A stretch of 24,357 nt of DNA from a virus, in IMG/VR virus record IMGVR_UViG_3300010148_000114, positions 1-24,357 of that record; one strand, given 5' to 3'. The position numbers were made by a program, and so were the translations under genes. Positions 1,235 through 24,357 of the stretch are shown here, one piece after another. Under the pieces are notes generated by a model, which was not told where the DNA came from, made no database searches, and saw only the letters and a program-made list of their open reading frames with translations. The stretch's first letter is position 1, and every line of letters begins with the position of its first letter.

Positions 1235-2057
1235 ATATTTAGTAATCGCATTATTATTACAAGGCTGCGCAAGTATAGGCATGCAACAATATCATTCAAA
1301 CTGCACAGACGGATTGCTATGTGTAGAAGGCCCAGTACTAGAGCCTAGTACAACAAAACAACTTTTAGATTTACCAACACCCAACCAAAAAACTGTGGTC
1401 GCAGTTTACGCATTTCCAGATTTAACAGGACAAAGAAAATCAAGCGATAATATTGCAAGTTTTAGTACTGCTGTTACACAAGGAGCAGAACACATATTAA
1501 TTGAAGCACTTCGTGATGCCGGTAGAGGTGACTGGTTTGCAGTTGTTGAAAGAAGTGGATTAGACCATGTTACAAAAGAAAGACAACTAGTAAGAAGTAC
1601 TTTTGAAAGCTACAATAGAGGTGCAGACGGTAAAACAATACTAAAACCACTAATATATGCAGGAATGTTAATAGAAGGCGGTATAATTGCATATGATACA
1701 AATTTAAAAACAGGCGGTAATGGTGCAAGATATCTAGGTATAGGTATGAAGAATCAGTATCGTGAGGATAAAGTAACTGTCGTCCTTAGAGCTGTGCTAG
1801 TGCAAACTGGTGAAGTACTCTTAAATGTAACAGCTACAAAAACGATTTTATCTACTGGGGGTGGAATGGACACGTTTCGTTTTATAGAAATGGGAACAGA
1901 GTTAGTTGAACTTGAAAGTGGATATTCAGAAAACGAGGCAGTTGGATACGCCGTGCGTGCCGCTATAGAAGCAGGTGTGTATGGTTTAGTTATGCAGGGC
2001 CTTGAAAAAGAAGTTTGGGATTTTGATTATTCCAAACTGAGAGAGGAAGAGAAATGA
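1227..2057 (+). CDS. csgG: CsgG-like curli secretion channel, outer-membrane lipoprotein
   Basis: The 276-residue protein is a clear CsgG. It starts with a lipoprotein signal (LLLQGC, acylated Cys14) and carries the family landmarks FSTAV (79-83), GARYLGIG (167-173), an LRAVLVQTGEVL strand (187-198), TKTILS (204-209), FRFIE (217-221) and SENEAV (234-239). CsgG forms a nonameric beta-barrel pore in the outer membrane that exports unfolded curli subunits. Length equals the E. coli protein within a few residues. By my alignment, the constriction residue Phe56 of E. coli is kept (Phe79). Asn55 is replaced by Ser78, and Tyr51 falls at Asp74 beside a one-residue insertion. Translation probably starts at the GTG overlapping the csgF stop. 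There is a CX5C pair near the N-terminus (Cys26, Cys32). Confidence 0.95.
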   Translation: MVKYLVIALLLQGCASIGMQQYHSNCTDGLLCVEGPVLEPSTTKQLLDLPTPNQKTVVAVYAFPDLTGQRKSSDNIASFSTAVTQGAEHILIEALRDAGRGDWFAVVERSGLDHVTKERQLVRSTFESYNRGADGKTILKPLIYAGMLIEGGIIAYDTNLKTGGNGARYLGIGMKNQYREDKVTVVLRAVLVQTGEVLLNVTATKTILSTGGGMDTFRFIEMGTELVELESGYSENEAVGYAVRAAIEAGVYGLVMQGLEKEVWDFDYSKLREEEK

Positions 2058-2731
2058 GAAAGATACTAGGACTATTCGCGATATGTCTATCTTTTGGAAC
2101 ATTTGCAGCAAATAATGATATTTATATCACTCAGACTGGTACAGGACTTACCTTGACAATTGACCAAATAGGTGCTAGTAACACCGTTGGTACTTCATCA
2201 AGTAGAGTAACCTTGTCAGGTACTTCTATGACTGTAGATATTGACCAGATTGGAGATAGTAACTCCTTTCTTGCTAGTATACTACAAGGTAATTCATCAA
2301 GTTGGACTTGGCTAAATACAGGTGATAGTAATACAGGAACTTTTACTGTTGGTGGAACAGGCGACGTAGCAAACTCAGACTTTGACTACAGCGCAACTGG
2401 TGACAGCAACATATTTACTTGGACACAAGGTGCGGCTGCTACAGCTACTGGAGGTAACCAAGATTTTACAATCACTGGTACTTCTAATGAGTACACAGGT
2501 ACTTGTGAGGTAGTTGGTTGTATAAATGCCTGGACTATTAGTGGAAATAGTAATGACATTACTACTACACAAACAGGTTCAGCCGACCACCAGATAACAG
2601 CATCGTTAACTGGTAATTCAAATACTGTAACTATTGACCAAACTGATACTGCATCAACAAATGTTGTGAATTTAATTTCAACAACAACAAATGGAACAAT
2701 AGACGTTGACCAATGCGCTTCTGGCTGTTAA
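2054..2731 (+). CDS. Curlin-repeat secreted protein, first copy (CsgA/CsgB-like)
   Basis: This 225-residue protein has a cleavable signal peptide (about residues 1-19, cleavage near FAA/NN) and then about eight imperfect units of roughly 22 residues. Each carries a G-x-SN turn, as in GASNT, GDSNS, GDSNT, GDSNI, GTSNE, GNSND and GNSNT, often preceded by IDQIG or a similar strand. This is the Gln/Asn/Gly curlin beta-solenoid pattern, so it is probably an amyloid fibre subunit or nucleator exported through CsgG. The repeats are more degenerate than in CsgA, and Ser/Thr-rich. Four cysteines (151, 156, 221, 225) are unusual for curlins; the last pair forms CASGC at the C-terminus. An ATGA overlap with csgG and a GGAAGAG site set the start. 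Confidence 0.88.
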   Translation: MRKILGLFAICLSFGTFAANNDIYITQTGTGLTLTIDQIGASNTVGTSSSRVTLSGTSMTVDIDQIGDSNSFLASILQGNSSSWTWLNTGDSNTGTFTVGGTGDVANSDFDYSATGDSNIFTWTQGAAATATGGNQDFTITGTSNEYTGTCEVVGCINAWTISGNSNDITTTQTGSADHQITASLTGNSNTVTIDQTDTASTNVVNLISTTTNGTIDVDQCASGC

Positions 2732-3819
2732 TATTTTTTATAGGAACAATCAGTGCGTCCGAAATAGGAGGAATATCTGAGATAAAAGGAAACGGAGAGA
2801 TAACTAGAGCAGACTCTAGTGACGCACTCACCGCAGAACTAAACTCAGATATTTTCTCTTATGATGATGTAAGAACAGGCAAAGGAAGACTAGCAATACA
2901 GTTTCTAGATGACTCTGTAGTAAAACTTACAGAACACTCAAAACTCATTATAGATGAATATATTTTTGACCCAGACCCAAACAAAAGCAAAATGGCTCTT
3001 AACATGGCTTCTGGAACTGCTCGTTTTATTACTGGCAAACTTGGAAGGATTAACAAGCAAAATATTTCTATAAAAACACCAACAGCTACGATAGGTATTC
3101 GTGGCACAGATTTTACAACTACTGTAGATGAATTAGGAAGAAGTTTAGTTATACTACTTCCAGATGAAGACGGAACCTCATCAGGAGAAATAACCGTAAC
3201 AACAGCATCTGGAGTAGAGATACTAAATGAACCTTTTCAGGCTACAATGGTATCAGCGTGGGAAACACCACCAACAAGACCAGTAACCCTGGCAAATATG
3301 ACTCTCGGGTTGATTGACAATATGTTAATTGTTAGTAGGCCTGAAGAAGTCAATGAAGCAGTAGAAGAGCAACAAACAGGAGTGTCACCTACTGCAGAAC
3401 TAGATAAAGATTTCTTTGAAGATGCACCAGATTTAGACTGTGATGCATTAGTTGAAGAATGTGACGAAGAAGAAAAAGAAATCACAAGATTAGACATAGA
3501 TTTATTATCTATAGACTTACTAGTAGATTTATTAGCATTAGTAGAAACAGCTAGTAAGAAAGCAAAAAATCAACAAGCTACTACTATTAGTAATGTAGAG
3601 TTAACAGGTATTATTGCAGGGTTTGACCCAGTATACCAAACTTTTACATTTGTTGAAGATGGACTTATTTATTTCGTACATGAAGGAGTAAATAGTTACG
3701 ATATAGGAATAGATACAGACACAGGAACATATTTATATATAAATAATGCAGGAGTAATAATGGAGGTAGAAATAAATGGTGCGGGCGATAATGTTATCAT
3801 TATTAATCAGTCTCCCTAG
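2713..3819 (+). CDS. Secreted FecR-domain protein with a curlin-like C-terminal motif
   Basis: The 368-residue protein has a short signal peptide (about 1-16). A FecR domain follows (about 48-135), recognised from GRLAIQFLDDSVVKL, the middle strand ending ASGTARFITG, and the signature TPTATIGIRGTDF. The rest is an acidic linker rich in Asp/Glu (about 200-265, with a CX6C pair), a helical segment, and a beta-rich C-terminus ending GAGDNVIIINQSP, which reads like one curlin repeat. In bacteria, FecR domains occur in periplasmic sensors and regulators and often sit beside CHASE2 cyclases; one lies two genes downstream here. It could therefore link fibre assembly to the cyclase, which is inference. 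The start lies inside the end of the curlin gene, and the stop lies inside the next one. Confidence 0.85.
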   Translation: MRFWLLIFFIGTISASEIGGISEIKGNGEITRADSSDALTAELNSDIFSYDDVRTGKGRLAIQFLDDSVVKLTEHSKLIIDEYIFDPDPNKSKMALNMASGTARFITGKLGRINKQNISIKTPTATIGIRGTDFTTTVDELGRSLVILLPDEDGTSSGEITVTTASGVEILNEPFQATMVSAWETPPTRPVTLANMTLGLIDNMLIVSRPEEVNEAVEEQQTGVSPTAELDKDFFEDAPDLDCDALVEECDEEEKEITRLDIDLLSIDLLVDLLALVETASKKAKNQQATTISNVELTGIIAGFDPVYQTFTFVEDGLIYFVHEGVNSYDIGIDTDTGTYLYINNAGVIMEVEINGAGDNVIIINQSP

Positions 3820-4576
3820 TTTTGCAGGAGATAATAGTCTTACTATAAAAACTAAAGGAACTGGTACTAGCATTACTGCTAAACAAGTAGGTAACGGTAA
3901 TGAAGGATACATACTATGCGGAGCAAACTCTAGCGGTTCACTACCCGGCACTTCCTACGTTTCACATACTTGTGGAAGCGCAACACTCAGTACTACAGTT
4001 ATAGGTAATAGTAATAATACTAGACTTTATACTGTATGGTCAAATAATATGGATAATAATTATACTATTACTATAGATGGAAATGATAATTTTGCTTGGC
4101 TAGACCAAGATGAAGACGATAATACTTCTACAATTACTCAGACAGGAGATGATAATCACGCAGAGCAGTTAGGTTCTGGAGATGATAATACATATTCAAT
4201 AACTCAAACAGGAGATGATAAGTATGCTAAGATATTTACTTTTGGAGATAACTCCGCTTTTACTATTAATCAGTATGGTAGTGGAGAACATAATACTTAC
4301 ATCTACAATCACTCAAACGCAGACAATAATACTGCTTCAGTAACACAGTATGGTACAGGAAATAAAGATGCAGATATATTCTTTTACAGCGATGCCGATA
4401 ATACAACTGTGAACTTAACACAATATGGAGCAGGGGCTCATGTAGCAAATATGAAATTTTATACTGACGATTATAATTTAAATGTTACTCAATCAGGAAC
4501 AACTAATCAAGCGTATACTGCAACTTTTAACTGTACATCAAACTGTACAAAGACTATAACTATAACACAAGAATGA
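3776..4576 (+). CDS. Curlin-repeat secreted protein, second copy
   Basis: This 266-residue product has a signal peptide (about 1-17, LLISLPSFAG) and then Gly/Asn/Asp-rich curlin repeats. The clearest units carry ITQTGDDN, ITQTGDD, INQYGSG, VTQYGTG, LTQYGAG and VTQSG, spaced about 20-24 residues apart. The I-x-Q-x-G turns are better preserved than in the first copy, so this may be the main fibre subunit, and the first copy a nucleator or minor subunit. Cysteines occur as one pair in the first third and as a CX3C pair (CTSNC) near the end. A strong GGAGG site lies 9 bases before the ATG, itself inside the 3' end of the FecR gene, suggesting high, coupled translation. Aspartate is abundant, so the repeats may bind calcium. 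Confidence 0.88.
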   Translation: MVRAIMLSLLISLPSFAGDNSLTIKTKGTGTSITAKQVGNGNEGYILCGANSSGSLPGTSYVSHTCGSATLSTTVIGNSNNTRLYTVWSNNMDNNYTITIDGNDNFAWLDQDEDDNTSTITQTGDDNHAEQLGSGDDNTYSITQTGDDKYAKIFTFGDNSAFTINQYGSGEHNTYIYNHSNADNNTASVTQYGTGNKDADIFFYSDADNTTVNLTQYGAGAHVANMKFYTDDYNLNVTQSGTTNQAYTATFNCTSNCTKTITITQE

Positions 4577-4959
4577 TAGAATACGCATTAATAGCAGACT
4601 TTAACTTTGCACAAATAAAAGAAGATTCAGCAAGAATAGATTCATATTTAGAAAGTCAAAAAATAGAGTTTGTAATAGATAACTCAATAGATTATGAAAT
4701 AAAACAATATATTCTTTGGAATATAGCAGACCTTTATACAACACATAGAGCTATGGAAACAACTTCTGCAAAAGAACAAAATCCTTTTTTACCGAGTAAT
4801 CCTGAACTTCATGAACTATTAATTCATAAAGCAACGTCTACTATTTCCATAGAACTATTAGGGTGGTTTGATGAAGAACTAAACGAAAATTTATTTACTT
4901 TAAATAGTTTAGGTTGGATAGTTGTATTTAATAATTTAGATGTACTATATGATAAATAA
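4573..4959 (+). CDS. Small protein of unknown function with a DUF5658-like motif
   Basis: The 128-residue protein overlaps the second curlin gene by ATGA and ends inside the cyclase gene, so it is embedded in this cluster. Residues 48-74 contain ADLYTTH and then EQNPFLP, followed by a lysine about 12 residues later. This resembles the D-x-x-TT ... E-x-NP ... K pattern of small DUF5658-type membrane proteins. That assignment is tentative, as the hydrophobic segments here are weak; the best candidates are about 45-56 and 106-125. The first 40 residues are acidic and soluble-looking. No catalytic role can be read from it. Confidence 0.65.
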   Translation: MIEYALIADFNFAQIKEDSARIDSYLESQKIEFVIDNSIDYEIKQYILWNIADLYTTHRAMETTSAKEQNPFLPSNPELHELLIHKATSTISIELLGWFDEELNENLFTLNSLGWIVVFNNLDVLYDK

Positions 4960-6733
4960 AATACTCACTTTAATTTTTGCACTAGGATTATTTATATGGA
5001 ATCCTTATCCAATGCAAATTCTAGAGCTCAAAACATTTGATTGGTTAATGTTATCACAACCAAAAATTCAAAATGAAAACATACTTATAGTAGACTTAGA
5101 TGAAGAAATAGTAGAGGCCTATGGAGGATATCCTTTGCCACGTTCTTTATTTGCGTCTATGATAGAAAAAACAGAAGGCATTCCTGGATTTACTATATTA
5201 ATGCCTGACCCAGATTTACGAGATAAAAATAACGACACTACATTAGCGATGTCTTTATTAAATAATCCAACTGTGTTAGCTTATGCAGCTTCAACACAAG
5301 CAACTGAAAAAGGTGCTCATGTGGGTACAGCTCAGTTAGGAGAAGACCCAATACCATGGCTATTAAACTATCCAGGAATTTTAAGACAACTACCAATTTT
5401 ACAAGTAAACGCAGACGGCGTAGGATTAATAAACTCCTCCCCAGAAGTAGACGGCGTCGTAAGACGTATGCCCGTAGTCGTCGCAAGCAAAGATAAAATA
5501 TTTCCTTCTTTTAGTTTAGAGATGTTAAGACTTGCAGTTGGTGACCCCAGCTATCAAATTAAGACTAATCAGGTAGGAGTAGAATGGTTAAGAATACCAA
5601 ACTATCCACTTATAAATACAGATTCAAATGGAAGAATATGGATAAATACTAATATAAATTTTTACAAACAAACTGCAGCTGAATATATGGCAGACCCAAT
5701 ACCAGCGCCCTTTGTTATATTTGGAGTTACAGCAGAAGGAGTAGTTAACCCTGTTCCAACTGCCTCAGGAGCAAAGTATCCTCATGAGATACAAGCGAAT
5801 GTACTCCACAATTTAATTGAAGGTACCGCACCCTCAATTCCCAACTGGAGTAGTGGAGCAGAGCTGGGAGCTGCAGTCTTGGCTTTGCTCTTTCTTTTAC
5901 TTACAGCAAGTAGAATCTATTTAAGTATACCTGCTCTACTCTTAGTTATTGGAGGTTCAATATATGGAGCCATATATGCTTTTGAATCTTCTTATTTGTT
6001 TGACGTTTCTGGGATTATTTTAATCTCCTTTTTATTCTGGAGTATTGAAAGTTTCCGTAATTTTGCAAAGACCTATTTTGAGAAATTACAAATTAAACAA
6101 CAATTTGGAACGTATGTAAGTCCTGACTTAGTAAAAAAATTACAGGACGACCCAACATTACTGAGATTGGGCGGGGAGACAAAACGACTCACTTTTCTTT
6201 TTTCTGATATTAGAGGATTCACACCAATCTCAGAAAAATATCAAAAAAATCCTCAAGGACTCACACAACTTATTAACAGATTCCTTGATAACCAAACACA
6301 AATCATACTAAAACATGGAGGCACCATTGATAAATATATGGGAGACTGTATCATGGCATTTTGGGGTGCACCACTTGATGACGAAGACCAAGTTAATAAT
6401 GCCACAAAGGCTGTCTTAGAAATGAGACTAGCACTAGGAGAATTAAATGAAAGACTCAGAGAAGAAGGCTTGGATACGATTAATACAGGAGCGGGAATCA
6501 ACACAGGACTCTGCGTGGTCGGTAACTTTGGTTCTAGCAATCGTTTTGATTACTCTGTACTTGGGGATAGCGTTAATCTAGCAGCCCGTTTAGAGTCAAG
6601 TTGTAAAGATTATGATACCGATTTAATTATTTCAGAATATAGTTTACTTGATGATTATGATTACGAGTTTCTAGACGAAGTAAAGGTCAAAGGCAAGTCA
6701 GAGCCCGTTAAAATCTATACCATACGAAAATAG
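4940..6733 (+). CDS. CHASE2-domain receptor-type class III adenylate cyclase
   Basis: The 597-residue protein has an N-terminal membrane segment (about 7-20), an extracytoplasmic CHASE2 sensor domain (about 28-295, with ILIVDLDEE near its start), three membrane segments (about 308-325, 327-346, 353-371), and a cytoplasmic class III nucleotidyl cyclase domain (about 412-597). The catalytic set looks complete: metal-binding Asp423 (FSDIRGF) and Asp469 (KYMGD), adenine-selecting Lys465, Ser539 at the Asp/Thr position, and transition-state Asn546 and Arg550 (VNLAAR). The Lys and Ser favour ATP, so it should make cAMP in response to a periplasmic or membrane signal. Start is at 4940, or possibly the Met codon at 4949. 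Such a receptor is unexpected in a phage and completes a FecR-CHASE2 pairing. Confidence 0.92.
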   Translation: MYYMINKILTLIFALGLFIWNPYPMQILELKTFDWLMLSQPKIQNENILIVDLDEEIVEAYGGYPLPRSLFASMIEKTEGIPGFTILMPDPDLRDKNNDTTLAMSLLNNPTVLAYAASTQATEKGAHVGTAQLGEDPIPWLLNYPGILRQLPILQVNADGVGLINSSPEVDGVVRRMPVVVASKDKIFPSFSLEMLRLAVGDPSYQIKTNQVGVEWLRIPNYPLINTDSNGRIWINTNINFYKQTAAEYMADPIPAPFVIFGVTAEGVVNPVPTASGAKYPHEIQANVLHNLIEGTAPSIPNWSSGAELGAAVLALLFLLLTASRIYLSIPALLLVIGGSIYGAIYAFESSYLFDVSGIILISFLFWSIESFRNFAKTYFEKLQIKQQFGTYVSPDLVKKLQDDPTLLRLGGETKRLTFLFSDIRGFTPISEKYQKNPQGLTQLINRFLDNQTQIILKHGGTIDKYMGDCIMAFWGAPLDDEDQVNNATKAVLEMRLALGELNERLREEGLDTINTGAGINTGLCVVGNFGSSNRFDYSVLGDSVNLAARLESSCKDYDTDLIISEYSLLDDYDYEFLDEVKVKGKSEPVKIYTIRK

Positions 6734-7948: not shown

Positions 7949-8093
7949 AGGCGGATATAGATTCGGTAAAACAGGAAAGATTCATAGAACTAAGAAAGCT
8001 GCTGACAGACAAGCAAGAGCAATATACGCATCAGGTTATGGTAAGAAAAAAACGAGACCCAAGAAAAGGAACAGGAAAAAAACCAAAAGGTAG
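7929..8093 (+). CDS. Small basic conserved-type phage protein (54 residues)
   Basis: An ATG at 7929, overlapping the end of the previous gene, opens a 54-residue frame to TAG at 8091-8093. It begins MPVRKVKGGYRFGKTGK and continues with a helix containing AADRQARAIYASGYGKKK. This glycine-tyrosine hairpin plus AIYASGY helix is a pattern I recall from small proteins in many marine and cyanobacterial phages. The Lys/Arg-rich last 15 residues overlap the next gene in another frame. Role unknown; the charge suggests nucleic acid contact. Confidence 0.7.
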   Translation: MPVRKVKGGYRFGKTGKIHRTKKAADRQARAIYASGYGKKKTRPKKRNRKKTKR

Positions 8094-8352
8094 CGGCAGA
8101 AGACTTTATACTGACGAGAATCCAAAAGATACTGTCAGAATTAAGTTTGCTACTGCAAAAGACGCACGAGCTACAGTACGAAAAGTTAAAAGAGTTCGTA
8201 AATCTTACGCAAGAAAAATACAAATACTAACAGTAGGTGAACAAAGAGCAAGAGTGATGGGAAAGAAAACAGTCGCATCAATCTTCAAGTCTGCGAAGGC
8301 AGGATTAAGGAGAGCACATGGTCGTAAGAAGAAGAAAAAGAAAGGCCGCTAA
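8038..8352 (+). CDS. Basic conserved-type phage protein (104 residues)
   Basis: The 104-residue protein has disordered Lys/Arg-rich ends and a folded-looking centre (about 30-90). The centre reads IKFATAKDARATVRKVK, then ARKIQILTVGEQRARVMGK, and is the part most likely conserved among phages. The C-terminus carries six consecutive lysines. The start lies 56 bases inside the previous gene, and the end overlaps the next by 35 bases. It may bind DNA or act in assembly; no enzymatic motif is visible. The Lys-rich ends resemble ribosomal proteins only in composition. Confidence 0.72.
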   Translation: MVRKKRDPRKGTGKKPKGSGRRLYTDENPKDTVRIKFATAKDARATVRKVKRVRKSYARKIQILTVGEQRARVMGKKTVASIFKSAKAGLRRAHGRKKKKKKGR

Positions 8353-8512
8353 AAAGAGACCACTACCAACAAACCCAACTCTTTATGCTAGAGTAAAAGC
8401 TGAGGCAAAGAGAAAGTTTAAAGTATACCCTTCCGCATATGCAAATGGGTGGTTAGTAAGAACATACAAAAAACGTGGCGGACGTTTTAGAATGGGAGTA
8501 AAGAAACGATGA
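8318..8512 (+). CDS. Basic small protein with a PSAYANGWLV motif (DUF-type)
   Basis: This 64-residue protein has an Arg/Lys-rich start. A helix with LYARVKAEAKRKFKVYPSAY follows, then ANGWLVRTYKKRGGRFR. The YPSAYANGWLV...YKKRGG signature recurs in small proteins of phages and giant viruses; I connect it tentatively with the DUF5872/DUF6321-type families. A GGAGAG site precedes the ATG. The gene belongs to the coupled cluster of basic proteins. Specific function unknown. Confidence 0.72.
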   Translation: MVVRRRKRKAAKKRPLPTNPTLYARVKAEAKRKFKVYPSAYANGWLVRTYKKRGGRFRMGVKKR

Positions 8513-8640
8513 TAGATTATATCAAAGAAACCTTCCTTCAGTTTTGGAATATTCTTTCGGGAAAGGATAAAAACTGGGACGGCTCTGTTGACATCAAAGA
8601 TAAAATGATAGAAGCAGAAGAAAAAGTAAAAAATGGCTAA
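8509..8640 (+). CDS. EF-hand-like microprotein (43 residues)
   Basis: The ATG overlaps the previous stop (ATGA) and opens a 43-residue acidic frame with GGGAG about 10 bases upstream. Residues 20-31 read DKNWDGSVDIKD. Asp1, Asn3, Asp5, Gly6, a hydrophobic at 8, Asp9 and Asp12 fit an EF-hand or dockerin-type calcium loop. It is preceded by an aromatic helix (YIKETFLQFWNIL) and followed by a charged helix, so it could be a complete single EF-hand unit. It is the only clearly acidic protein among strongly basic neighbours. Calcium binding is inferred from the motif. Confidence 0.65.
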   Translation: MIDYIKETFLQFWNILSGKDKNWDGSVDIKDKMIEAEEKVKNG

Positions 8641-8935
8641 GTATCAAGGCGGACTAACTAAATGGTTTAAAGAAGGTTGGGTAGATATATCTAGACCTAG
8701 AAAAGGCGGTGGTTATCAGCCTTGTGGCAGAAAATCTGCAAGAAAAAGCAAAAGCGGATATCCGAAATGTGTCCCTGCTAGTAAAGCTGCAAGAATGACT
8801 AAATCACAAATAAAGTCAGCAGTTAGAAGAAAAAGAGCAGCTGGTAATCCAGGAGGAAAACCAAGAAATGTTGCTACTTTTGCTAAGAGGGGTAGAAAGA
8901 AAAAAAGAACTACCAGAAGCAGACGCAAAAGATAA
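8633..8935 (+). CDS. Basic conserved-type phage protein with a GLTKWFKEGWVDI motif
   Basis: This 100-residue basic protein opens with GLTKWFKEGWVDISRP, followed by a Gly-rich turn, PCGRKSARKS, and PKCVPASKAARMTKSQIKS. The basic tail (VRRKRAAGNPGGKP) closes with a run of Lys/Arg. The first half, with its W/D motif and two cysteines, is a recognisable small domain shared by phage and large-virus proteins (DUF5872/DUF6321-type in my memory; exact number unsure). Overlap with the preceding gene is eight bases. Probably nucleic acid binding; role unknown. Confidence 0.75.
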   Translation: MAKYQGGLTKWFKEGWVDISRPRKGGGYQPCGRKSARKSKSGYPKCVPASKAARMTKSQIKSAVRRKRAAGNPGGKPRNVATFAKRGRKKKRTTRSRRKR

Positions 8936-8951
8936 TCCTAAAAAGGAAACC

Positions 8952-9128
8952 ATGAAAGAAAACTTAGTATATGAAATACTTGGTGTTGTGTCCATGTCAA
9001 TAAGACTAAAAAGAACAATAGAAGATAAGATTTCTTGGGGGATTCAGCTTCGTGAGTTGCTTCAACTCCCAAAAAACAAAGCTAACAGTAATATCGTTAG
9101 AGAATATTTAAAAGATGGCACTCAATAA
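8952..9128 (+). CDS. Small hypothetical protein (58 residues)
   Basis: The frame extends upstream to 8868 in the same phase, but the ATG at 8952 has an AAAAGGAAACC site just before it, and the extension would lie inside the previous gene. The 58-residue product is helical (ENLVYEILGVVSMSIRLKR, then a second helix) with mixed charge, unlike the surrounding Lys-rich proteins. It could be a small winged-helix or subunit-type protein. The next start overlaps its 3' end. Not recognised. Confidence 0.62.
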   Translation: MKENLVYEILGVVSMSIRLKRTIEDKISWGIQLRELLQLPKNKANSNIVREYLKDGTQ

Positions 9129-9315
9129 ACGAAAACACTCAGCATTTTTACGAAATAAACATGTTTATAAATCACCAGGCCCTGCTAAAAAAGCAGCGAC
9201 TAAACTGGGATTAAAAGGCATACATGCTCATGGCAGAGGAAAAGCCAAGAGATTTATGCCAGGAAGCTCTCATAAAGCATATAGAAATGCATTGAGAAAG
9301 AAAAGGAGAAAATAA
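9115..9315 (+). CDS. Basic small protein (66 residues)
   Basis: This 66-residue protein is rich in Lys, Arg, Ala and His, with a central PGPAKKAATKLGLKGIHAHG and MPGSSHKAYRNAL. It ends in a Lys/Arg cluster. Its stop abuts the next ATG directly (TAA then ATG). The repeated AKKAAxK/KGI pattern suggests a small fold that binds phosphate backbones, which is inference. Part of the basic cluster upstream of the terminase. Confidence 0.68.
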   Translation: MALNKRKHSAFLRNKHVYKSPGPAKKAATKLGLKGIHAHGRGKAKRFMPGSSHKAYRNALRKKRRK

Positions 9316-9558
9316 ATGGCAGGTAAATTTTTAAGCGGACCAAGTATTCACAATACTCAAAAAATCCGTAAGCATGTTCTCAAAAGAGGACTAACAAGAG
9401 ATATGAATGCAGCTGCAGGAACTTTAGTAAATACTAAAAATCCTAATGGCATAGAGGCATTTAGATATGCTACTGCACCAAAGGGCATAGGCCCACGTTT
9501 TGGCAAAACTAAAAATCCACCAAAAGCAAGATTTCCCGGAAGGAGAAGAAGAAGATAG
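9316..9558 (+). CDS. Basic small protein (80 residues)
   Basis: The 80-residue protein starts right after the previous stop and contains a moderately hydrophilic core (GPSIHNTQKIRKHVLKRG, then a segment with GIEAFRYATAPKGIG). It ends in a Pro/Lys/Arg tail with five final arginines. The purine-rich end of the previous gene (AGGAGAA) gives the ribosome site. Role unknown. A 75-base gap follows (9559-9633) with no convincing gene or promoter. Confidence 0.68.
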   Translation: MAGKFLSGPSIHNTQKIRKHVLKRGLTRDMNAAAGTLVNTKNPNGIEAFRYATAPKGIGPRFGKTKNPPKARFPGRRRRR

Positions 9559-9633
9559 ATATTTATAATAAATTTCATACTTTAATGAAATCAGGTAGAT
9601 TACCTAAAGTTTGTAAGATAGCAGGAATAAATA

Positions 9634-9963
9634 ATGGCACTAACAAAAGCAGAAAAAGCAAGATTAAAAAGAGCAGGGTTATCAAAGTTAAACAAACCAA
9701 AAAGAACACCTAATCATAGAACTAAAAAAGCTGTTGTTGCTACAAGAGTTGGTGGCAAGGTAAAAATTATTCGTTTTGGAGCACAAGGCATGGGGCATAA
9801 CTATAGCCCCGAGGCCAGAAGAAGTTTCAAGGCTAGACATAGGAAGAATATTGCAAAAGGCAGGTCTTCCGCAGCTTGGTGGGCAAATAAAGTCTTCTGG
9901 GCTGGAAAAGGTGGTAGTACAAAAAGACCACCAAAATCACAAAAACGTAAATTCGGAAAGTAG
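9634..9963 (+). CDS. Basic conserved-type phage protein with a SPEARRSFKARH motif
   Basis: The 109-residue protein has a Lys-rich N-terminus, a beta segment (VGGKVKIIRFGAQG), then GHNYSPEARRSFKARHRKNI, AKGRSSAAWWANKVFW, and a Lys-rich end. The combination of SPEAR, FKARH and AAWWANKVxW is familiar to me from proteins just upstream of terminase genes in marine phages. I cannot name a validated function. The consistent site next to the terminase suggests a packaging or DNA-associated role. A GCAGGAATAAAT site precedes the ATG. Confidence 0.75.
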   Translation: MALTKAEKARLKRAGLSKLNKPKRTPNHRTKKAVVATRVGGKVKIIRFGAQGMGHNYSPEARRSFKARHRKNIAKGRSSAAWWANKVFWAGKGGSTKRPPKSQKRKFGK

Positions 9964-13137: not shown

Positions 13138-13397
13138 TGACAAAAAAATCAAAAGCTTTAAAAATGATAGCAGAATATATGGCAAAGAAAGGAAAAGTTC
13201 TTACACTAGCTGAATATAATGCTGAAACAGACAAGCCCATTAGAACAGCAATACTAAAAAGAACATTTGGTGGCTCTTGGGCAAGAATGGAACAAATGTT
13301 AGAACATAATTATCCAGAACTATATGTGCCTACACCAGCACCAGCACCTAAAAAGACAGTTGCAAAAGCTAAAGTAGGAAAGAAAGATGGAAAATAA
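13137..13397 (+). CDS. Small protein resembling a homing-endonuclease-associated repeat
   Basis: The 86-residue protein has a small helical domain (1-60). Its segment reads AKKGKVLTLAEYNAETDKPI, then ILKRTFGGSWARMEQML. The spacing of the helix, the LTxxEY motif and the RTFGGSWxxME motif resembles the HNR repeat that accompanies homing endonucleases and other DNA binders. A Pro/Ala linker (PTPAPAPKK) and basic tail follow. It starts at the last base of the portal gene and overlaps the capsid gene by 11 bases. Nucleic acid binding is likely but not shown; the function in the head operon is unknown. Confidence 0.65.
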   Translation: MTKKSKALKMIAEYMAKKGKVLTLAEYNAETDKPIRTAILKRTFGGSWARMEQMLEHNYPELYVPTPAPAPKKTVAKAKVGKKDGK

Positions 13398-15450
13398 AAT
13401 ATATCATTGGACCAGTAATTTTAAAACTCTAGGAGAGTCAGAAGACGGTGGAGTAGAAATTAAAGGTTCAGCAAGTACAAACGCACTAGATAGAGCAGGA
13501 GATATAATCAATACAGATGCATGGACAAAAGGAGGATTAGAGAACTTTAAGAATAATCCTATTATTTTATTCAATCATGATTATAACAAGCCTATTGGTA
13601 GAGCAAAAAATTTACAAGTTACTGACAACGGTTTAGAGATATCAGCAAAGATATCTAAAGCTGCTGGTGAAGTAACACAATTAATTAAAGACGGTGTCCT
13701 TGGAGCTTTTTCTGTTGGTTTCAAAGTCAAGGACGCTGATTACATGACTGAAACTGACGGATATAAGATAAAGGATGCAGAGCTTTTTGAAGTATCTGTA
13801 GTATCTGTGCCTTGCAACCAAAATGCAACTTTTGGATTAGCAAAATCATTTGATTCTATGGAAGATTACAACAAGTATAAGCAAACTTTTTACACGGCTA
13901 ACTTAAACGATTCAGCAGACGCTGTTGAAGTTGAGCAGCCAAGTCAGGCGCAAGCCAAAGAAATGGAGACAAATATGTCAAACGAAAAACAATCTCCTGA
14001 GAGCAATCCTGAGTTCAATATTGAATCATATGCTAAAGAAGCAGCTGAAAAAGCTGTAGCTTCTTATGCAATGAAGCAAGCTGAACTAAAGGCTGCTGAA
14101 CAGAAGGCTGCTGAAGAAGCTGTTGAAAAGGCTGCTAAAGAAGCTGAAGTTCAAAAAGCCTCCGAGGAAGCAAAACAGGAAGAGCAAAAAACTATAGTCC
14201 AAGCTGGGCTATCAGGTGCTGAAAAGCTAATGTCAGATGTTGAGACACGAGTAAATGAAAAGCATGAAGATTTAGAGAAAGTTGTAAAAGAACTTGAATC
14301 TCAGTTATCTGAGAAGTCTGAAGAAATCATGAATATTCGTGAGTCAAAAAGAATGTTCACAGACAGAGGCAACGGCAACTGGAAAAAAGACTTTGAAAAT
14401 GATGTTCTTGATGCAAAATTCTTAGGATTAGCAACAGGTAAAGGATATGACACAGACTACGGTAAGAGTGTTATGGAGAAAGTTAACGCACATTCAGGCG
14501 TTGGTGTATCTTCAGCAGACTTTGAGCAAGTTGTATCTACAAACATTGAAAGAGATATTCAGAATGAATTAGTATTAGCTCCTCTATTTAGAGAAATTAC
14601 TATGACTTCTGCAAATCAAATTATACCAATCATGCCTGATGCAGGTTATGCAGAATTTACTTCTAACCAAACTGCTAGTGGTTCTTCACCACATGGTAAC
14701 TTGGCCCAAAGAGGTGATGCATACAACCCTGGTTCAGCAGGTGGTATTGATTTAACAGAAAGAACTCTTTCTACTGTTAAACTCATTTCACAATCATTCT
14801 TAGGTAATGAAACAGAAGAAGATGCAATCATGCCAATCTTACCTCTCATCAGAGAATCAATGGTAAGGTCTCATGCAAGAGCTATTGAAAACGCTATCTT
14901 AGCTGGTAACAACTCAGCTAATGGTGTATTCTCATCAGGTTCTTTTGAAGGTTTAATTCAAAAAGCCGCTCAAGATGATAGCTCAGGTACACACGTAACT
15001 GCATCAACAACTGCATTTGCAAGTGAATCTTTAACTGCAGCTAACCTATTAGCTATGAGAAAGAAAATGGGTAAATATGGTATAAATCCAGCTGAAGTAC
15101 TTTATATTGTTAACCAACAAGAGTATTTCAACTTACTAAGCGATGCTGAGTTCCAAGACGCTAACCTAGTTGGCGACATGGCTACTAAGCTATCAGGTGA
15201 AATCGGACAAGTGTTCGGTACAAGAATTCTCGTTTGTGATGAATTCGCAACACCTGCAGTAAGTAAAGTTCATGCTGTAGCAGTATATCCAAGAAACTAT
15301 GTAATGCCAAGATTAAGAGGCGTTACTATTGAATCAGACTACGAAGTAGCAAACCAAAGAAGAGTCCTAGTGGCTTCTCAAAGACTTGGTTTCACTGATT
15401 TAATTGATGGAGCAACAACAGTTCACGCAAGAAGTTACAAAGCTAGCTAA
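13387..15450 (+). CDS. HK97-type prohead protease fused to major capsid protein
   Basis: One 687-residue frame joins two normally separate proteins. Residues 1-150 are a U35/S78-type prohead protease: His64 (FNHDYNKPIGR), Ser109 (GAFSVGFKV) and Glu135 (ELFEVSVVSVPCNQNA) fit the catalytic triad. Residues 197-320 form a Lys/Glu/Ala-rich coiled-coil, which is the scaffold-like delta domain of the capsid protein. From about 330 the HK97 fold follows (QNELVLAPLFREITM, IMPDAG, SHARAIENAIL, YIVNQQEY, YPRNYVMPRL). The protease would remove the delta domain after assembly. An internal ATG with GGAG (see 13965) could yield the capsid part alone. Expression likely starts at the 11531 promoter. Confidence 0.93.
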   Translation: MENKIYHWTSNFKTLGESEDGGVEIKGSASTNALDRAGDIINTDAWTKGGLENFKNNPIILFNHDYNKPIGRAKNLQVTDNGLEISAKISKAAGEVTQLIKDGVLGAFSVGFKVKDADYMTETDGYKIKDAELFEVSVVSVPCNQNATFGLAKSFDSMEDYNKYKQTFYTANLNDSADAVEVEQPSQAQAKEMETNMSNEKQSPESNPEFNIESYAKEAAEKAVASYAMKQAELKAAEQKAAEEAVEKAAKEAEVQKASEEAKQEEQKTIVQAGLSGAEKLMSDVETRVNEKHEDLEKVVKELESQLSEKSEEIMNIRESKRMFTDRGNGNWKKDFENDVLDAKFLGLATGKGYDTDYGKSVMEKVNAHSGVGVSSADFEQVVSTNIERDIQNELVLAPLFREITMTSANQIIPIMPDAGYAEFTSNQTASGSSPHGNLAQRGDAYNPGSAGGIDLTERTLSTVKLISQSFLGNETEEDAIMPILPLIRESMVRSHARAIENAILAGNNSANGVFSSGSFEGLIQKAAQDDSSGTHVTASTTAFASESLTAANLLAMRKKMGKYGINPAEVLYIVNQQEYFNLLSDAEFQDANLVGDMATKLSGEIGQVFGTRILVCDEFATPAVSKVHAVAVYPRNYVMPRLRGVTIESDYEVANQRRVLVASQRLGFTDLIDGATTVHARSYKAS
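13965..13977 (+). promoter_or_regulatory. Internal ribosome binding site and start within the protease-capsid gene
   Basis: GGAG (13965-13968) stands six bases before an in-frame ATG (13975-13977, Met197), at the junction between the protease part and the coiled-coil delta domain. The spacing is ideal. Initiation here would make a 491-residue capsid protein with its own delta domain, alongside the full-length fusion. Confidence 0.55.
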
Positions 15451-18143: not shown

Positions 18144-19451
18144 ATGGCAGATACATTTTATTTTAGTCGTGATACCAAAGTTCATCTCACTGATAGTGCA
18201 GGAGCAATCTATAAAATACCAGTGCTAGATGGATTTAGTTTTTCACAGGCGACAAACACTTCAGAGATTACTCTGAATGAAATGGCCAATTCAGGAGTAA
18301 GTAGAAGAGCTAGACAAATGTTTACTGATTCATACGCTCCAGCAGAGTGGTCATTTTCAACATATATCAGGCCTTTTAAGTCTGGTGGCGCAGGCTCAGG
18401 AGGAGAACACTCAGCAGTGCATCATCACATGGTAGAAGAGGCTTTATGGAACGCTTTAGCAGGAAGTGGAGCAGTAGGTGCAAGTGGTACAGCTCTAACA
18501 GCTGATGGAACAGATGCAAATATAGCTTTTACAAATTCAAATAAAGTAGCATTAGATACTTTTGATTTATTCTTTGAATTAGGAACTGGAAAAGCAAATC
18601 CAACAATTTATAAGATAGAGGGCTGTGTTGTAAATGAAGTAACAGTAGATTTTGATATTGATGGAATCGCTACTGCTCAATGGTCAGGATTTGGTAAGAT
18701 TATAACTGAAGAATCTTCTATGACCACAGCAACTATCTTTGAAGGTACAGCAGCAGCAGATACAAATAACTTTATTAGAAATAGATTAACAGACTTAACT
18801 GTAACTAATGATGTATTTGAAACAACAGCAAATGGAGCAGTAAGTAGTTCTGCTAGTGTTACTTTAGCAGCAGGTAGTGATTTAATCAAAGTAGGACAAA
18901 ATGTTTTTGCTGCAGGAACTGCAGTTGGAACTGTATCTGCAATTTCAGGTACAACTCTAACTCTAAGTGGAGCAGTAAGTATATCAAACGGAGCCGCTAT
19001 AGTATTTTCAAATGCAGGAATGGTTAGTAGCTATACTTTAACACTAATTGGTGGAAATATCACTATTTCAAATAATATGACTTTCTTAACACCAGAAACT
19101 TTAGGTTCAATTAATCAACCTTTAGGTCATGTTACAGGAACTCGTTCAGTATCAGGTGCCTTTAGTTGTTACTTAAATACTCCCGCTAGTGGAGCTTCAA
19201 GTACAGATTTATTTGAAGATATTATTGAATCTACTTCAACAATAACAAATTCATTTGATTTAACATTTGTTGTTGGTGGAAGTGGTAATACACCAAGAGT
19301 TACAATGAACTTAAATAATTGTCATCTTGAAGTGCCAACACACTCATTAGATGATATAATAAGTTTAACAACTAACTTCCACGCATTACCAACATCAGTT
19401 GATGCAACAGACGAAATAGATATGATTTTCGTAGGACCAACTGTAACATAA
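18144..19451 (+). CDS. Major tail tube protein with an inserted beta domain
   Basis: This 435-residue protein is Gly/Ser/Thr/Ala-rich and beta-rich, with tail-tube features: an N-terminal TKVHLTDSAGAIYKIPVLDG, the strand EWSFSTYIRP, and VVNEVTVDFDIDGIATAQW, the usual centre of these proteins. The C-terminal half has SVSGAFSCYLNTP and RVTMNLNNCHLEVP. Residues about 232-290 look like an extra, self-contained small beta domain (SVTLAAGSDLIKVG, AISGTTLTLSG). It probably projects from the tube. The AGGAGA site lies 6 bases before the ATG, and a strong hairpin follows the stop, fitting high expression. Confidence 0.8.
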   Translation: MADTFYFSRDTKVHLTDSAGAIYKIPVLDGFSFSQATNTSEITLNEMANSGVSRRARQMFTDSYAPAEWSFSTYIRPFKSGGAGSGGEHSAVHHHMVEEALWNALAGSGAVGASGTALTADGTDANIAFTNSNKVALDTFDLFFELGTGKANPTIYKIEGCVVNEVTVDFDIDGIATAQWSGFGKIITEESSMTTATIFEGTAAADTNNFIRNRLTDLTVTNDVFETTANGAVSSSASVTLAAGSDLIKVGQNVFAAGTAVGTVSAISGTTLTLSGAVSISNGAAIVFSNAGMVSSYTLTLIGGNITISNNMTFLTPETLGSINQPLGHVTGTRSVSGAFSCYLNTPASGASSTDLFEDIIESTSTITNSFDLTFVVGGSGNTPRVTMNLNNCHLEVPTHSLDDIISLTTNFHALPTSVDATDEIDMIFVGPTVT

Positions 19452-19461
19452 ATAATTTAAC

Positions 19462-19481
19462 AGGGAGGGGAAACCCTCCCT
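19462..19481 (+). terminator. GC-rich hairpin with GAAA loop after the tail tube gene
   Basis: AGGGAGGG (19462-19469) pairs with CCCTCCCT (19474-19481) around a GAAA tetraloop, then CTTTC. The eight-pair stem with a stable GNRA loop is among the strongest local structures in the window. It may reduce readthrough from the abundant tube mRNA into the chaperone genes, or protect its 3' end. The weak T-run makes full termination uncertain. Confidence 0.78.
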
Positions 19482-19499
19482 CTTTCATAGGAAAAATAA

Positions 19500-19931
19500 A
19501 TGACAGAAGAAAAACAACAAGCAGTATCATTAGCGAGTTTATTAACTCCAAGTAAAACGGTAACAGTTGACTATCCTGGTTATAAAGGAATGACTGTTGA
19601 CCTTTGCTATTTAGCAAGAGAAGAATTAATGAAACTTAGAAATCGTTGTGTTTCTCAAAAACTCAATCGTAAGACTAGAGCATTTGAAGAGATACTAGAC
19701 GAAGAAAAGTTTATCATAGAGTATGTAAAAGCTGTAATCAAGGGGTGGAGCGGTTTAAAATATTCTTACCTAGAAGAGCTTCTATTGGTGGATATTAGTA
19801 GTCTCAATCCTGAAGATGAACTTCCTTTTACACAAGAAAATGCGCAGACTTTAATGAAGAATGCGACTGATTTTGATACTTGGGTAACGGAAGTTGTAGG
19901 AGATTTAGAAAATTTTACGAAGACCAAGTAA
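19500..19931 (+). CDS. Tail assembly chaperone, G-like short product
   Basis: This 143-residue protein is placed between the tube gene and the tape measure gene, the usual site of the lambda gpG counterpart. It has a beta start (KTVTVDYPGYKGMTVDL), then helical segments (LAREELMKLRNR, EEKFIIEYVKAVIKGWSG) and an acidic loop. It should bind the tape measure protein and feed tube subunits during tail assembly. A slippery heptamer near its end lets some ribosomes continue into the following frame. The AGGAAAAAT site precedes the ATG. Confidence 0.8.
   Translation: MTEEKQQAVSLASLLTPSKTVTVDYPGYKGMTVDLCYLAREELMKLRNRCVSQKLNRKTRAFEEILDEEKFIIEYVKAVIKGWSGLKYSYLEELLLVDISSLNPEDELPFTQENAQTLMKNATDFDTWVTEVVGDLENFTKTK
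19910..19916 (+). promoter_or_regulatory. Programmed -1 frameshift site (A AAT TTT)
   Basis: In the 0 frame the codons read GAA AAT TTT, so the heptamer A-AAT-TTT fits the canonical X XXY YYZ slip pattern. A -1 slip puts the ribosome in the frame of the next gene (reading TAC at 19916), which is open through to 20341. The resulting fusion would have about 280 residues. Confidence 0.83.
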
Positions 19932-20341
19932 AAGAAATACTTGGTCTCTTAGAGAAAGAATTTAGAGATGGTCAGATTTCTTTAGATACATATTTAGATA
20001 TATGTGAACAAAAAGGTATAGAACCTGACCCAGATGAAATGCCACCAACTATGGGAGATTATCCTCCAGAAGTTCAGGTGGCTTTTTTATTGCACGACCT
20101 TTTACCAGATCGTTGGGACGGTATGAGTGGCTCTTACTTTGGTAAGGATATGTCAGCATTAGATTTACTACTTGAAACTTGGGAAGTAGAGGATAAAAGA
20201 ACTACTATATTTTTTATCAAAAAAATAGAAGCATATAATTCAAAACAAATAAATGAAAAATTGAGAAGAAAAAGAGAGGCTTCAGAAAGACAAGCAAAAG
20301 CAAACGCAGGTTCTAAATCTGGTATAAATGTAAAAGGATAA
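19916..20341 (+). CDS. Tail assembly chaperone, T-like extension made by -1 frameshift
   Basis: This frame continues directly from the slip site and encodes about 141 residues, so the fused product covers 19500-20341. Its only independent start would be a poor alternative codon near 19880, with no ribosome site. The sequence is helical and rich in acidic residues, with a Pro-rich turn (EPDPDEMPPTMGDYPPEVQ), the segment FLLHDLLPDRWDGMSG, and a Lys/Arg-rich C-terminal helix. In lambda the T part recruits tube protein. It ends at the tape measure start (TAATG overlap). Confidence 0.82.
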   Translation, partial: YEDQVKEILGLLEKEFRDGQISLDTYLDICEQKGIEPDPDEMPPTMGDYPPEVQVAFLLHDLLPDRWDGMSGSYFGKDMSALDLLLETWEVEDKRTTIFFIKKIEAYNSKQINEKLRRKREASERQAKANAGSKSGINVKG

Positions 20342-23300
20342 TGAGTAAAACAGTAAAAGCAGGAAAAATTATTATTGAGTTAGATGATGGTAATACCATT
20401 GAACTTTTTGGTAATTCAGCAAAGAAAACTTCAAAGAAAGTAGATGATTTAAGTAAATCAACTCAAACTGCTGATAGAAATCTAAAAGGAGCCGCTCGTG
20501 CTTCTTCAAATACAACAAAAAACTTTTCTAAAATGCAACAAGGCCTTGGTGGTCTTGTAGGTGCTTATGCAACTCTTGCTGCTTCAATATTTGCTATTGG
20601 TGCGGCATTTAGAGCATTAGAAGAGGCTTCAAATATTAAAAATCAAATTAGAGGTATGGAAATATTTGGAGAAGTTACTGGTATTGCCATGAGAAGTATT
20701 GTAGCAGATGTAAGAGCTGCAACAGGAGGACTTTTACAGTTTCGTGATGCTGCTCAAGCTGCTCAGATAGCAACAGCTGCAGGATTCAATGCTACTCAAA
20801 TAAAAGAACTAGCAACTGGAGCAAAATTAGCCTCTGTTGCTCTTGGTAGAGATTTAACTGATTCATTTAACAGATTGATTCGTGGTGTGACAAAAGCCGA
20901 GCCCGAACTACTTGATGAATTAGGTATCGTACTAAGAATAGATGATGCAACTAGAAAATTTGCTCAGGCAAATAAAGTTGCAGCAAAATCATTAACAATT
21001 GCACAAAGAAGGTCAGCTGTATTTGAAGAAGTTTCTAGACAATTAGTACAAAACTTTGGAGAGTTTAATGAACAAGCAGATGAACTTGTAAATCCTATTA
21101 CTAGACTTCAAACTGCTTTTAATGATTTAATAGTATCTGCAAGAAATCTTGTTGGTCCTTTTGAAGAAATAGCAAACTTTATTTCTAGAAATACAGGAGC
21201 AGCAGCAGCTTTATTTGTAGGTTTTGGTGTTGCTATAATAAAATCAGCTTTTCCTGCTTTGAATACTTTAACAACAAGTTTACAAAATTTTGCAATAAAT
21301 GCACAAACAAGTTCAGAAGCAGCAAATGCAGCATATAAAAAACAAGCAATTGCATTTAAAGCAAATTCTAATGATATGATGGCCTCAGAACAAATAAGGT
21401 CTGCAAAATCAAGAGCAATTCTAAGAAAACTTGGTGTAGATGAAGACGCTTTTCTTGCAAAAAGAGCTATTAATCAAAGAAGATCAGTTGCACAGCTTAT
21501 TCGTAATGAACAATTAAGAGCAGAAGGAAGTAAAAAAATAAGAGAAGCAGAATTAGCGCATCTTATAGCTGTTCATAAAGCCATGGAAGCCTCTCATGTA
21601 AAAATGACAACAAGAATGATGGCAGGCATAAAAGCACTTGGAACAGGTAGTGCAGCAGTATTTACAGGAATAGGAGCAGCAGGTGCAGCTGGAATAGGAG
21701 CAATAGGAACAGGAGTAAGTAAACTTAGTGGTGCTTTCGCTATGCTGGGCACTGTTATAAATGCTGCATTCTTTATATTTCTTGCTGGATTCGTAGGAAA
21801 ATTTATATTTGAAATGGTATTTCTAACAAAAGAAATGAGAGAAGAAATGGAAAAAACTGATAAAGTCATAGAAGCTTCTCAAAATAGAATAAAAGAAATA
21901 GATAGAATTGGTAATAAATTATTTCAGGGGGCTGCTGAAACAGCCGAAGATAATTTTAATAGAATTAATAAACAATTAATTGCAACATTCAATTTAATTA
22001 ATGGTTTACGAGATGCAGACGCAGCAAAATCTATAATAGGAGAAGCTCAAACAGGACAATTATCAAAATCACAAAGAGCTGACCTTGCAGGCATAGTTTT
22101 AGAACAATTGACTACAGCTACTGCTTTAGCAGGGGGAGATTTATCAAGTATTAAATCTTTTTTACAAGGTTTAAATCTCTCTTCCTTTGGTATTACTCCT
22201 GACTTTGACCCAGATGAAATGAAAAAGGTAGATAAAAATATTTTTGATAGTTTACCAGATTCTAGTGGTATTGGAGGACTAAAAGGTGTTCTTGAAATAC
22301 TAGATAGACAAGGACTTGAAGGAAGTGCAGATTTATTAAGAAGTATATTTGTAGATGTGTTTAAAAACGCAGACCCAAATAAAATAACTGCTGTAATAGG
22401 AAGCACGGCTACCCAATTAAAATTTGTAAATGAAGCAGCTGGAGACCAAGGAGAAAAATTACAGGGTGTAAGCGATGCATTAAAAGAGTTTGTAGAAGTA
22501 ACAAATAGAATTACTTTTACTCCGACTGCTTTTGAAAATCTTGCTTCATCAATAAGAACTGTTAAAAATGATATAGATGAGGCAATAAAAGCACAGGTTA
22601 CAGGTGCTCAACTTCTAGATTTAATTCAAACAAAAACAAATAGAAATTTTGCAACAGTTAAAGAAGGACTAGACTTTGTTAGACTTATGGCATTTGAAAC
22701 AGATGCTATAATAAAAGAATCAGCTCAAAATCTTCGTGATGCAGGTATAATTGATGCAAAATTAGCAAGAGTTGGAAGCAGAAAAGACCCGCTTGCAGAT
22801 AGAGTGAAAAGAAATTTAAAAATTGAACAATTAACAAATAAAAGACAGAAAAAAGAGATAGAAATTAGACAAGAGGTTCAAAGACTTAATGCAGCAAATG
22901 AGTTAGGAAATGTTCAAGCAGAAAAGAAACTAAGAAACTTAGAAGACCAATTAATGGTTTTACAAGCACAAGAAGACGAAGCTACAAGAGCAAATTCAGT
23001 TATGGGTAAATTAAATGATACAATGGCTCAACAATTAGGAAATATGTTCCAAAGCATTATAGATGGCACAATGAAAGCTTCAGAGGCCTTTAAACAATTC
23101 GCAAAAGTAGTTTTAGAAAAATTAGTAGAAATAGCAGCAGCTGAAGCAGCAGCAAATATATTAGCAGCTTTTGGTAGTAATCTTATTACAGGTTTTGCAG
23201 GAGGAGGAAGAGGCGATACAACAATGGCAGGAGAACCTACTCCCCTACCACAAGGTCAAGCGTATGGAAGATACGGTGGAATAATGAAACCTAAATTTTC

Positions 23301-23604
23301 AGCAAGAATGGGTTATATGCCAGGAGGTATAGCAGACGGACCAAATGCAGGATATACAGCAGTATTACATGGAAGAGAAGCCGTAATACCTCTAGGACAA
23401 GGACAAAATGCAATACCTGTTGTATTTAAAGACGGTGCCCCTGGAGGAATGACAAATTCAGTTGTAAATGTTACAGTAAATAGTGATGGTAGTTCAGAAA
23501 TGACAGAAGAGCAAGCAACAGGTATGGGAAGAAGTATACAAGCAGCTGTTATAAATGAGATAGCAAATCAACAAAGACCAGGTGGTATGTTAAGCGGAGG
23601 ATAA
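20341..23604 (+). CDS. Tape measure protein
   Basis: The 1087-residue protein follows the tail chaperones and has typical content. There is a Ser/Lys-rich start and long helical stretches. Several hydrophobic segments are visible (about 65-90, 285-305, and 430-490, containing FTGIGAAGAAGIGAIGTG and FFIFLAGFVGKF). A coiled-coil lies around 815-890, and the Gly-rich end has AVLHGREAVIPLGQG near 1015-1030, a pattern shared by many tape measure proteins. It sets tail length and is released into the cell envelope at infection. At about 1.5 Angstrom per residue this implies a tail near 160 nm, a family rule and only approximate. Confidence 0.93.
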   Translation: MSKTVKAGKIIIELDDGNTIELFGNSAKKTSKKVDDLSKSTQTADRNLKGAARASSNTTKNFSKMQQGLGGLVGAYATLAASIFAIGAAFRALEEASNIKNQIRGMEIFGEVTGIAMRSIVADVRAATGGLLQFRDAAQAAQIATAAGFNATQIKELATGAKLASVALGRDLTDSFNRLIRGVTKAEPELLDELGIVLRIDDATRKFAQANKVAAKSLTIAQRRSAVFEEVSRQLVQNFGEFNEQADELVNPITRLQTAFNDLIVSARNLVGPFEEIANFISRNTGAAAALFVGFGVAIIKSAFPALNTLTTSLQNFAINAQTSSEAANAAYKKQAIAFKANSNDMMASEQIRSAKSRAILRKLGVDEDAFLAKRAINQRRSVAQLIRNEQLRAEGSKKIREAELAHLIAVHKAMEASHVKMTTRMMAGIKALGTGSAAVFTGIGAAGAAGIGAIGTGVSKLSGAFAMLGTVINAAFFIFLAGFVGKFIFEMVFLTKEMREEMEKTDKVIEASQNRIKEIDRIGNKLFQGAAETAEDNFNRINKQLIATFNLINGLRDADAAKSIIGEAQTGQLSKSQRADLAGIVLEQLTTATALAGGDLSSIKSFLQGLNLSSFGITPDFDPDEMKKVDKNIFDSLPDSSGIGGLKGVLEILDRQGLEGSADLLRSIFVDVFKNADPNKITAVIGSTATQLKFVNEAAGDQGEKLQGVSDALKEFVEVTNRITFTPTAFENLASSIRTVKNDIDEAIKAQVTGAQLLDLIQTKTNRNFATVKEGLDFVRLMAFETDAIIKESAQNLRDAGIIDAKLARVGSRKDPLADRVKRNLKIEQLTNKRQKKEIEIRQEVQRLNAANELGNVQAEKKLRNLEDQLMVLQAQEDEATRANSVMGKLNDTMAQQLGNMFQSIIDGTMKASEAFKQFAKVVLEKLVEIAAAEAAANILAAFGSNLITGFAGGGRGDTTMAGEPTPLPQGQAYGRYGGIMKPKFSARMGYMPGGIADGPNAGYTAVLHGREAVIPLGQGQNAIPVVFKDGAPGGMTNSVVNVTVNSDGSSEMTEEQATGMGRSIQAAVINEIANQQRPGGMLSGG

Positions 23605-23605
23605 A

Positions 23606-23980
23606 ATGGCATTAGGATTTACAGATTTAACAAGTACAAGAAGAATCCCCGATAGAGGATTAGCAAAGAAAACTACTCCAAGAACTTTTACAGTAGAGTT
23701 TGGAGATGGTTACGAACAAAGAATAGCAAGAGGAATAAATAATTTAGCAGAAGAATTTAGTATAGCCTTTACAAATAGACCTGTAGCAGATATAGATGAT
23801 ATAATAGCCTTCTTTGATAGCAAAGCAGGAGTTACTGCTTTTGATTTTACTATACCTGATACGAATGAAAGTGGAAACGAAGTAACTATTAAGGTTGTAT
23901 GTGAAACATGGAATAAAGTATACTTTAAAGATAATTTTTATAATGCAACAGCAACATTTAGAAGAGTCTATGAGTCATGA
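23606..23980 (+). CDS. Minor tail protein, gpM-like
   Basis: The 124-residue protein carries the lambda gpM family pattern from start to end: a PDRGLAKKTTPRTFTVEFG strand, GDGYEQRIARGIN, the segment FTNRPVADIDDIIAFF, a GVTAFDFTIPD strand, and FYNATATFRRVYES at the end. Length and order match the family. It is needed for tail tip assembly. It sits one base after the tape measure stop and overlaps the gpL-like gene by ATGA. Confidence 0.85.
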   Translation: MALGFTDLTSTRRIPDRGLAKKTTPRTFTVEFGDGYEQRIARGINNLAEEFSIAFTNRPVADIDDIIAFFDSKAGVTAFDFTIPDTNESGNEVTIKVVCETWNKVYFKDNFYNATATFRRVYES

Positions 23981-24168
23981 CAGAAAAATTACTTAATAAA
24001 GATTTTCAAAAACAAGCCCCTGGTTCAGCTATTCTTCAGCTTTTTGAACTAGAATTATCTAGTTCTAGTACTGTATATTTTCATGCTGGAGTAGAAGAAG
24101 ATTTATCAACTGTTCAACTTAGACAAGAAGACGGCACTATAAAGACGTACGTTGCTTTACCTGTATAA
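23977..24168 (+). CDS. Minor tail protein, gpL-like, N-terminal part ended by an in-frame TAA
   Basis: This 63-residue frame begins in the usual gpL position, overlapping the gpM-like gene. It matches the gpL N-terminus in layout: a hydrophilic lead, then the LQLFELELSSSSTVYFHAG strand pair and KTYVALPV. The stop at 24166-24168 falls where homologues continue, and the following codons keep coding in the same frame (see the entry at 24169). In lambda gpL, as I recall it, the equivalent position reads PYPIQGSGFEL, so a single C-to-T change from CAA would explain the TAA. Confidence 0.78.
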   Translation: MTEKLLNKDFQKQAPGSAILQLFELELSSSSTVYFHAGVEEDLSTVQLRQEDGTIKTYVALPV

Positions 24169-24357
24169 GCTTCAGGATTTGGACTTGATCCAAGCCGACC
24201 AGTAACAAGACCTTCAATAGCTTTTGCAAATGCCCTTTCAGTTTTTGGAAACGCAGTAGGTGAATATGATGATTTACTTGGAACAAAAATAACACGAAGA
24301 ACAACATTACAAAAATACTTAGTAGGAGAAAGCGGAGACGCAACCCCTCCTGTAGAA
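24169..24357 (+). pseudogene. Continuation of the gpL-like gene after the in-frame TAA (3' partial)
   Basis: Directly after the TAA, the same frame remains open for 63 codons to the window end. It starts ASGFGLDPSRPVTRPSIAFA, which fits gpL family members (a GSGF-type motif, then Pro-rich PxLTVxN). A gpL homologue would normally be one chain, so this is the second half of a broken or recoded gene. It has no start codon of its own close to the TAA. A sequencing error is equally possible. Confidence 0.72.

Follow-up and report, generated by a model that had tools for sequence, protein, structure and literature searches.

An in-frame TAA interrupts the lambda gpL-like tail tip (hub) gene at the end of the IMG/VR record IMGVR_UViG_3300010148_000114. 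Its presence in the record is a confirmed observation, and it very probably belongs to one arm of a branch between strain variants where the contig ends, that is, to an assembly artefact or a minority haplotype. Since the relatives of this gene are intact and the site lies at strain variation met by the assembly, an effect of the assembly end or of a minority variant is the most likely explanation, ahead of any new biological mechanism behind the TAA.

The interrupted gene

The window (i.e. the whole stretch of DNA that was analysed, 24357 bases) is a complete linear virus record, and its end is the end of that record. On the plus strand, an intact tape measure gene (20341–23604) is followed by an intact gpM-like minor tail gene (23606–23980; PF05939), which overlaps by 4 nt the start of the gpL-like gene, whose interrupted 5′ part (23977–24357; PF05100, phrog_18) extends to the last base. 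No other structural gene in the window is interrupted.

The ORF at 23977–24168 encodes 63 aa and ends in TAA exactly at 24166–24168 (plus strand), codon 64 being unambiguous in the record. As the first-pass annotation of this DNA had claimed, the same frame stays open for the next 63 codons, here followed up to the final base of the window; read through the TAA, it amounts to 127 codons free of any other stop. An opening of 63 codons was found in 0.5% of mononucleotide shuffles of the local sequence, and a comparable open frame follows the end of only 2 of the 34 listed genes, so that the open frame past the TAA is not a matter of chance. The same annotation had placed the stop in the middle of a domain of a gpL-like tail gene, and both points are borne out by Pfam: the read-through product matches Phage_tail_L (PF05100) over residues 31–115, on both sides of the stop and across codon 64 (1.8e-08, 34.4 bits, above the curated cut-off of 25). 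The intact gpL of the closest relative, contig L002, exceeds the same cut-off at 1.1e-28 and 100.4 bits.

Comparison with lambda indicates what a truncated product would lack. The intact relatives match the solved structure of lambda gpL (PDB 8iyk chain L, 5.4e-12), and the gene order is lambda-like, with tape measure, gpM, gpL, a JAB-domain protein, a gpI-like protein and a next large gene; the first three were read in the window and the downstream genes, gpK/gpI-like ones among them, in L002. The relatives' gpL is larger than that of lambda (414 versus 232 aa), and the window's gpL, unlike that of lambda, is cut at codon 64. This codon aligns with Gln62 in the solved lambda structure, inside the N-terminal HDI domain formed by residues 1–166 (PMC10721106). 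In L002, cysteines are found at positions 171, 192, 367 and 374, and the window ends before all four of them; Cys171, Cys367 and Cys374 align with the lambda Fe-S ligands Cys173, Cys205 and Cys212 (PMC10721106), the fourth pairing being presumed. A product ending at codon 64 would be deprived of most of the N-terminal domain and of the entire Fe-S domain.

The open frame is also the one argument for a gene split into two functional pieces, the second being translated separately by a restart after the stop. No in-frame ATG, GTG or TTG occurs in the 63 codons 3′ of the TAA, which makes such a restart unlikely; in L002 the frame offers no further start-like codon before number 311, which lies beyond two of the cysteines matching Fe-S ligands. 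In addition, the alignment to lambda gpL places the stop inside the N-terminal domain. We regard the probability of a split as negligible.

Codon 64 among relatives

Only one near-identical record covers codon 64. This record, L002, shares 99.1% identity with the window across 1578 nt (22780–24357), encodes an intact gpL of 414 aa and carries AAA (Lys) at codon 64, as do L003 and L004. A DNA pattern spanning the codon, with any codon allowed at the site, matched only three already-known contigs, all with AAA. Across about 120 relative rows, the aligned column contained Lys 51 times, Gln 41 times, Glu 11 times and a few other residues, some of the rows being duplicates in which one contig had been fetched twice. 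The sole stop in the column is the window itself, listed twice since L001 is its copy; among the relatives, no stop was found at codon 64 or anywhere else in the aligned gpL. The picture at codon 64 was unchanged after reduction to 87 distinct sequences. Searches for similar DNA among phage records and for host genomes with a gpL relative returned no match.

The first-pass annotation had named a sense codon in relatives as the observation that would tell against its account, and every relative compared has one; the TAA is therefore not a conserved feature. Its proposal of a single-base nonsense change stands, but the particular change that it suggested, CAA to TAA, does not hold for the nearest kin: these carry AAA, so that the change relative to them is AAA to TAA, Gln being common among more distant relatives.

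These comparisons also bear on the suggestion that readthrough or suppression of the stop limits the amount of tail-tip protein. Programmed readthrough of a stop codon is known in phages, the coat protein of Q-beta being an example. Under this reading the UAA would be passed at some frequency, so that gpL would be made in a short and a long form, and the window does share with such systems a stop within an open frame whose continuation keeps its domain content. Unlike programmed phage readthrough, however, the stop is UAA rather than UGA, it truncates the protein inside a domain and not at a domain end, and it is conserved in no relative. Moreover, readthrough is reported to be lowest at UAA (PMC5289835), more of the window's genes end in TAA than in any other stop codon, and no tRNA gene was found in these 24 kb of an incomplete genome. 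We accordingly set this proposal aside as very improbable.

Reassignment of the stop codon, by which the phage or its host would read TAA as an amino acid, has a single point in its favour, namely that the frame is open if TAA is taken as a sense codon. However, TAA is the normal gene end here, closing 19 of the 34 listed genes and in some cases abutting the start of the next gene (e.g. 23604/23606), and the relatives have ordinary sense codons at position 64. The probability of a reassigned code is thus vanishingly small.

Signature of a contig end

In de Bruijn assemblers, a contig that ends at a path junction has its final k bases in common with the second path. After position 24234, the window and L002 show zero differences for exactly 123 nt, up to the contig end (24235–24357, plus strand); the distance from the last difference to the end of the window thus equals a k-mer length used by MEGAHIT (k = 123). 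PMC6646334 gives settings with k up to 123 for MEGAHIT and up to 127 for SPAdes, and PMC6243002 gives k = 123 for JGI data.

This pattern recurs among the relatives. The ends of full-length contigs related to the window were set against contigs that extend beyond them (n = 122 ends), and exact terminal runs of 123 nt were found at 8 of the 122 ends (the window included), runs of 126 or 127 nt at 6, and runs of 141 nt at 2, while every other run length between 90 and 160 nt occurred once or never. In total, 22 runs fell within this range, for which an even spread would give approximately 0.3 per length (hand calculation). The contigs concerned include L146, L151, L166, L188, L212 and L225. The last of these is a separate record, identical to the window over 4885 nt (18612–23496), and its own end shows 4 differences in the last 293 nt and then 126 identical nt. 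Differences from near-identical records are also more frequent towards contig ends (1.4–1.9% within 500 nt of the end versus 0.7% at 500–1000 nt). As the lengths of the terminal runs match assembler k values, the contig most likely stopped at a branch of the assembly graph. The window thus stands among the ends whose terminal runs match known contig-end effects (MEGAHIT k = 123, SPAdes k = 127), and it departs from the usual cases in that its arm holds a nonsense codon, and hence looks biological.

A patch of differences beside the end

Of the 14 differences between the window and L002 over 1578 nt, 7 lie within a patch of 117 nt (24118–24234, plus strand) immediately before the terminal run; a 130-nt cluster of this density was obtained in 0.3% of random placements (p approx. 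0.003). The changes in the patch are F48L, N56K, a synonymous change at T57, K64*, G74R, a Ser/Thr difference at codon 80 and a synonymous change at A86. When L003 is added to the comparison, 5 of the 7 are private to the window, 1 is three-way and 1 is private to L002. These changes look unselected: besides the stop, they include G74R in a column where Gly is nearly invariant (83 of 86 distinct relatives) and moves to the rare codons ACG and CGA, and the mix of effects in the patch is close to that expected of random mutation (71% missense, 4% stop, 25% silent).

Nevertheless, the arm is not simply L002 with random errors, since all 7 changes fall within one k-mer length and the TCA at codon 80 is common to the window and L003. 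The segment may, in addition, vary naturally, as L002 and L003 differ more there (11 differences in the 117-nt patch) than in the flanks (8 in 264 nt). It is quite possible, then, that the patch arm is a real haplotype, and it may be one that carries damage rather than the product of read error alone.

The unambiguous codon 64 and the linked changes, which include a Ser codon also present in L003, could be taken to favour a real nonsense mutation that is widespread or fixed in the phage population. The record would then be a defective genome or a prophage remnant without a tail tip, or else a phage that depends on intact relatives infecting the same cell; in each case the allele would have to be more than a minor arm. 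We consider this unlikely. No sign of decay is seen elsewhere, as the other structural genes are open and a stretch of 4.9 kb is identical in the independent record L225, and the stop is confined to the patch that adjoins the end of the contig. Furthermore, the tail tip of lambda includes gpL (PMC10721106), so loss of this protein should be lethal. It is very improbable that a genuine TAA is maintained in a conditionally defective marine siphophage, which would obtain its hub by readthrough or from co-infecting intact relatives.

Proposed origin of the TAA arm

Our preferred explanation, an effect of the assembly end or of a minority variant, would involve two alleles in the sample, one of them an intact, L002-like allele, and these would form a branch in the assembly graph with the TAA in one arm. 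Within that arm, a single-base nonsense change would have turned the AAA (Lys) of the nearest kin into TAA. The assembler, presumably, took the arm with the TAA and halted on rejoining the sequence common to the other allele. The arm itself could stem from erroneous reads taken into a contig end with poor support, or it could be a minority haplotype; we give about equal weight to these two origins, and a minority haplotype would probably be non-functional. The first-pass annotation was right, in our judgement, to list a sequencing error and a lethal variant within the population, which are the leading candidates. Either way, the TAA arm would be uninformative on how the phage makes its tail tip.

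Other features of the window

Several features lie elsewhere in the window. At 704–6733, a curli-like set (CsgF, CsgG, two curlin-repeat proteins, a FecR-domain protein and a CHASE2-cyclase) is found beside lambda-type head and tail genes. Relatives of its CsgG and CHASE2-cyclase occur in the myophages HTVC008M and Melnitz, and no match was found in phage records for the curlin-repeat protein encoded at 2054–2731. Whereas Melnitz is described as lacking the fibre genes csgA and csgB (PMC9004378), the siphophage-type record analysed here has curlin-repeat proteins. This gene set is probably of greater interest than the TAA. At 8038–9963, just 5′ of the terminase gene, small Lys/Arg-rich ORFs follow one another, and their products look like DNA-binding or packaged proteins. 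Finally, the prohead protease (Peptidase_S78) and the major capsid protein (Phage_capsid) are fused in one 687-aa frame at 13387–15450.

Meaning of the finding

The biological weight of the TAA in the gpL-like gene is small, and its value lies in a lesson of method on the ends of contigs in viral metagenomes: nonsense codons or odd residues near such contig ends should not be taken for recoding or gene loss without the reads.
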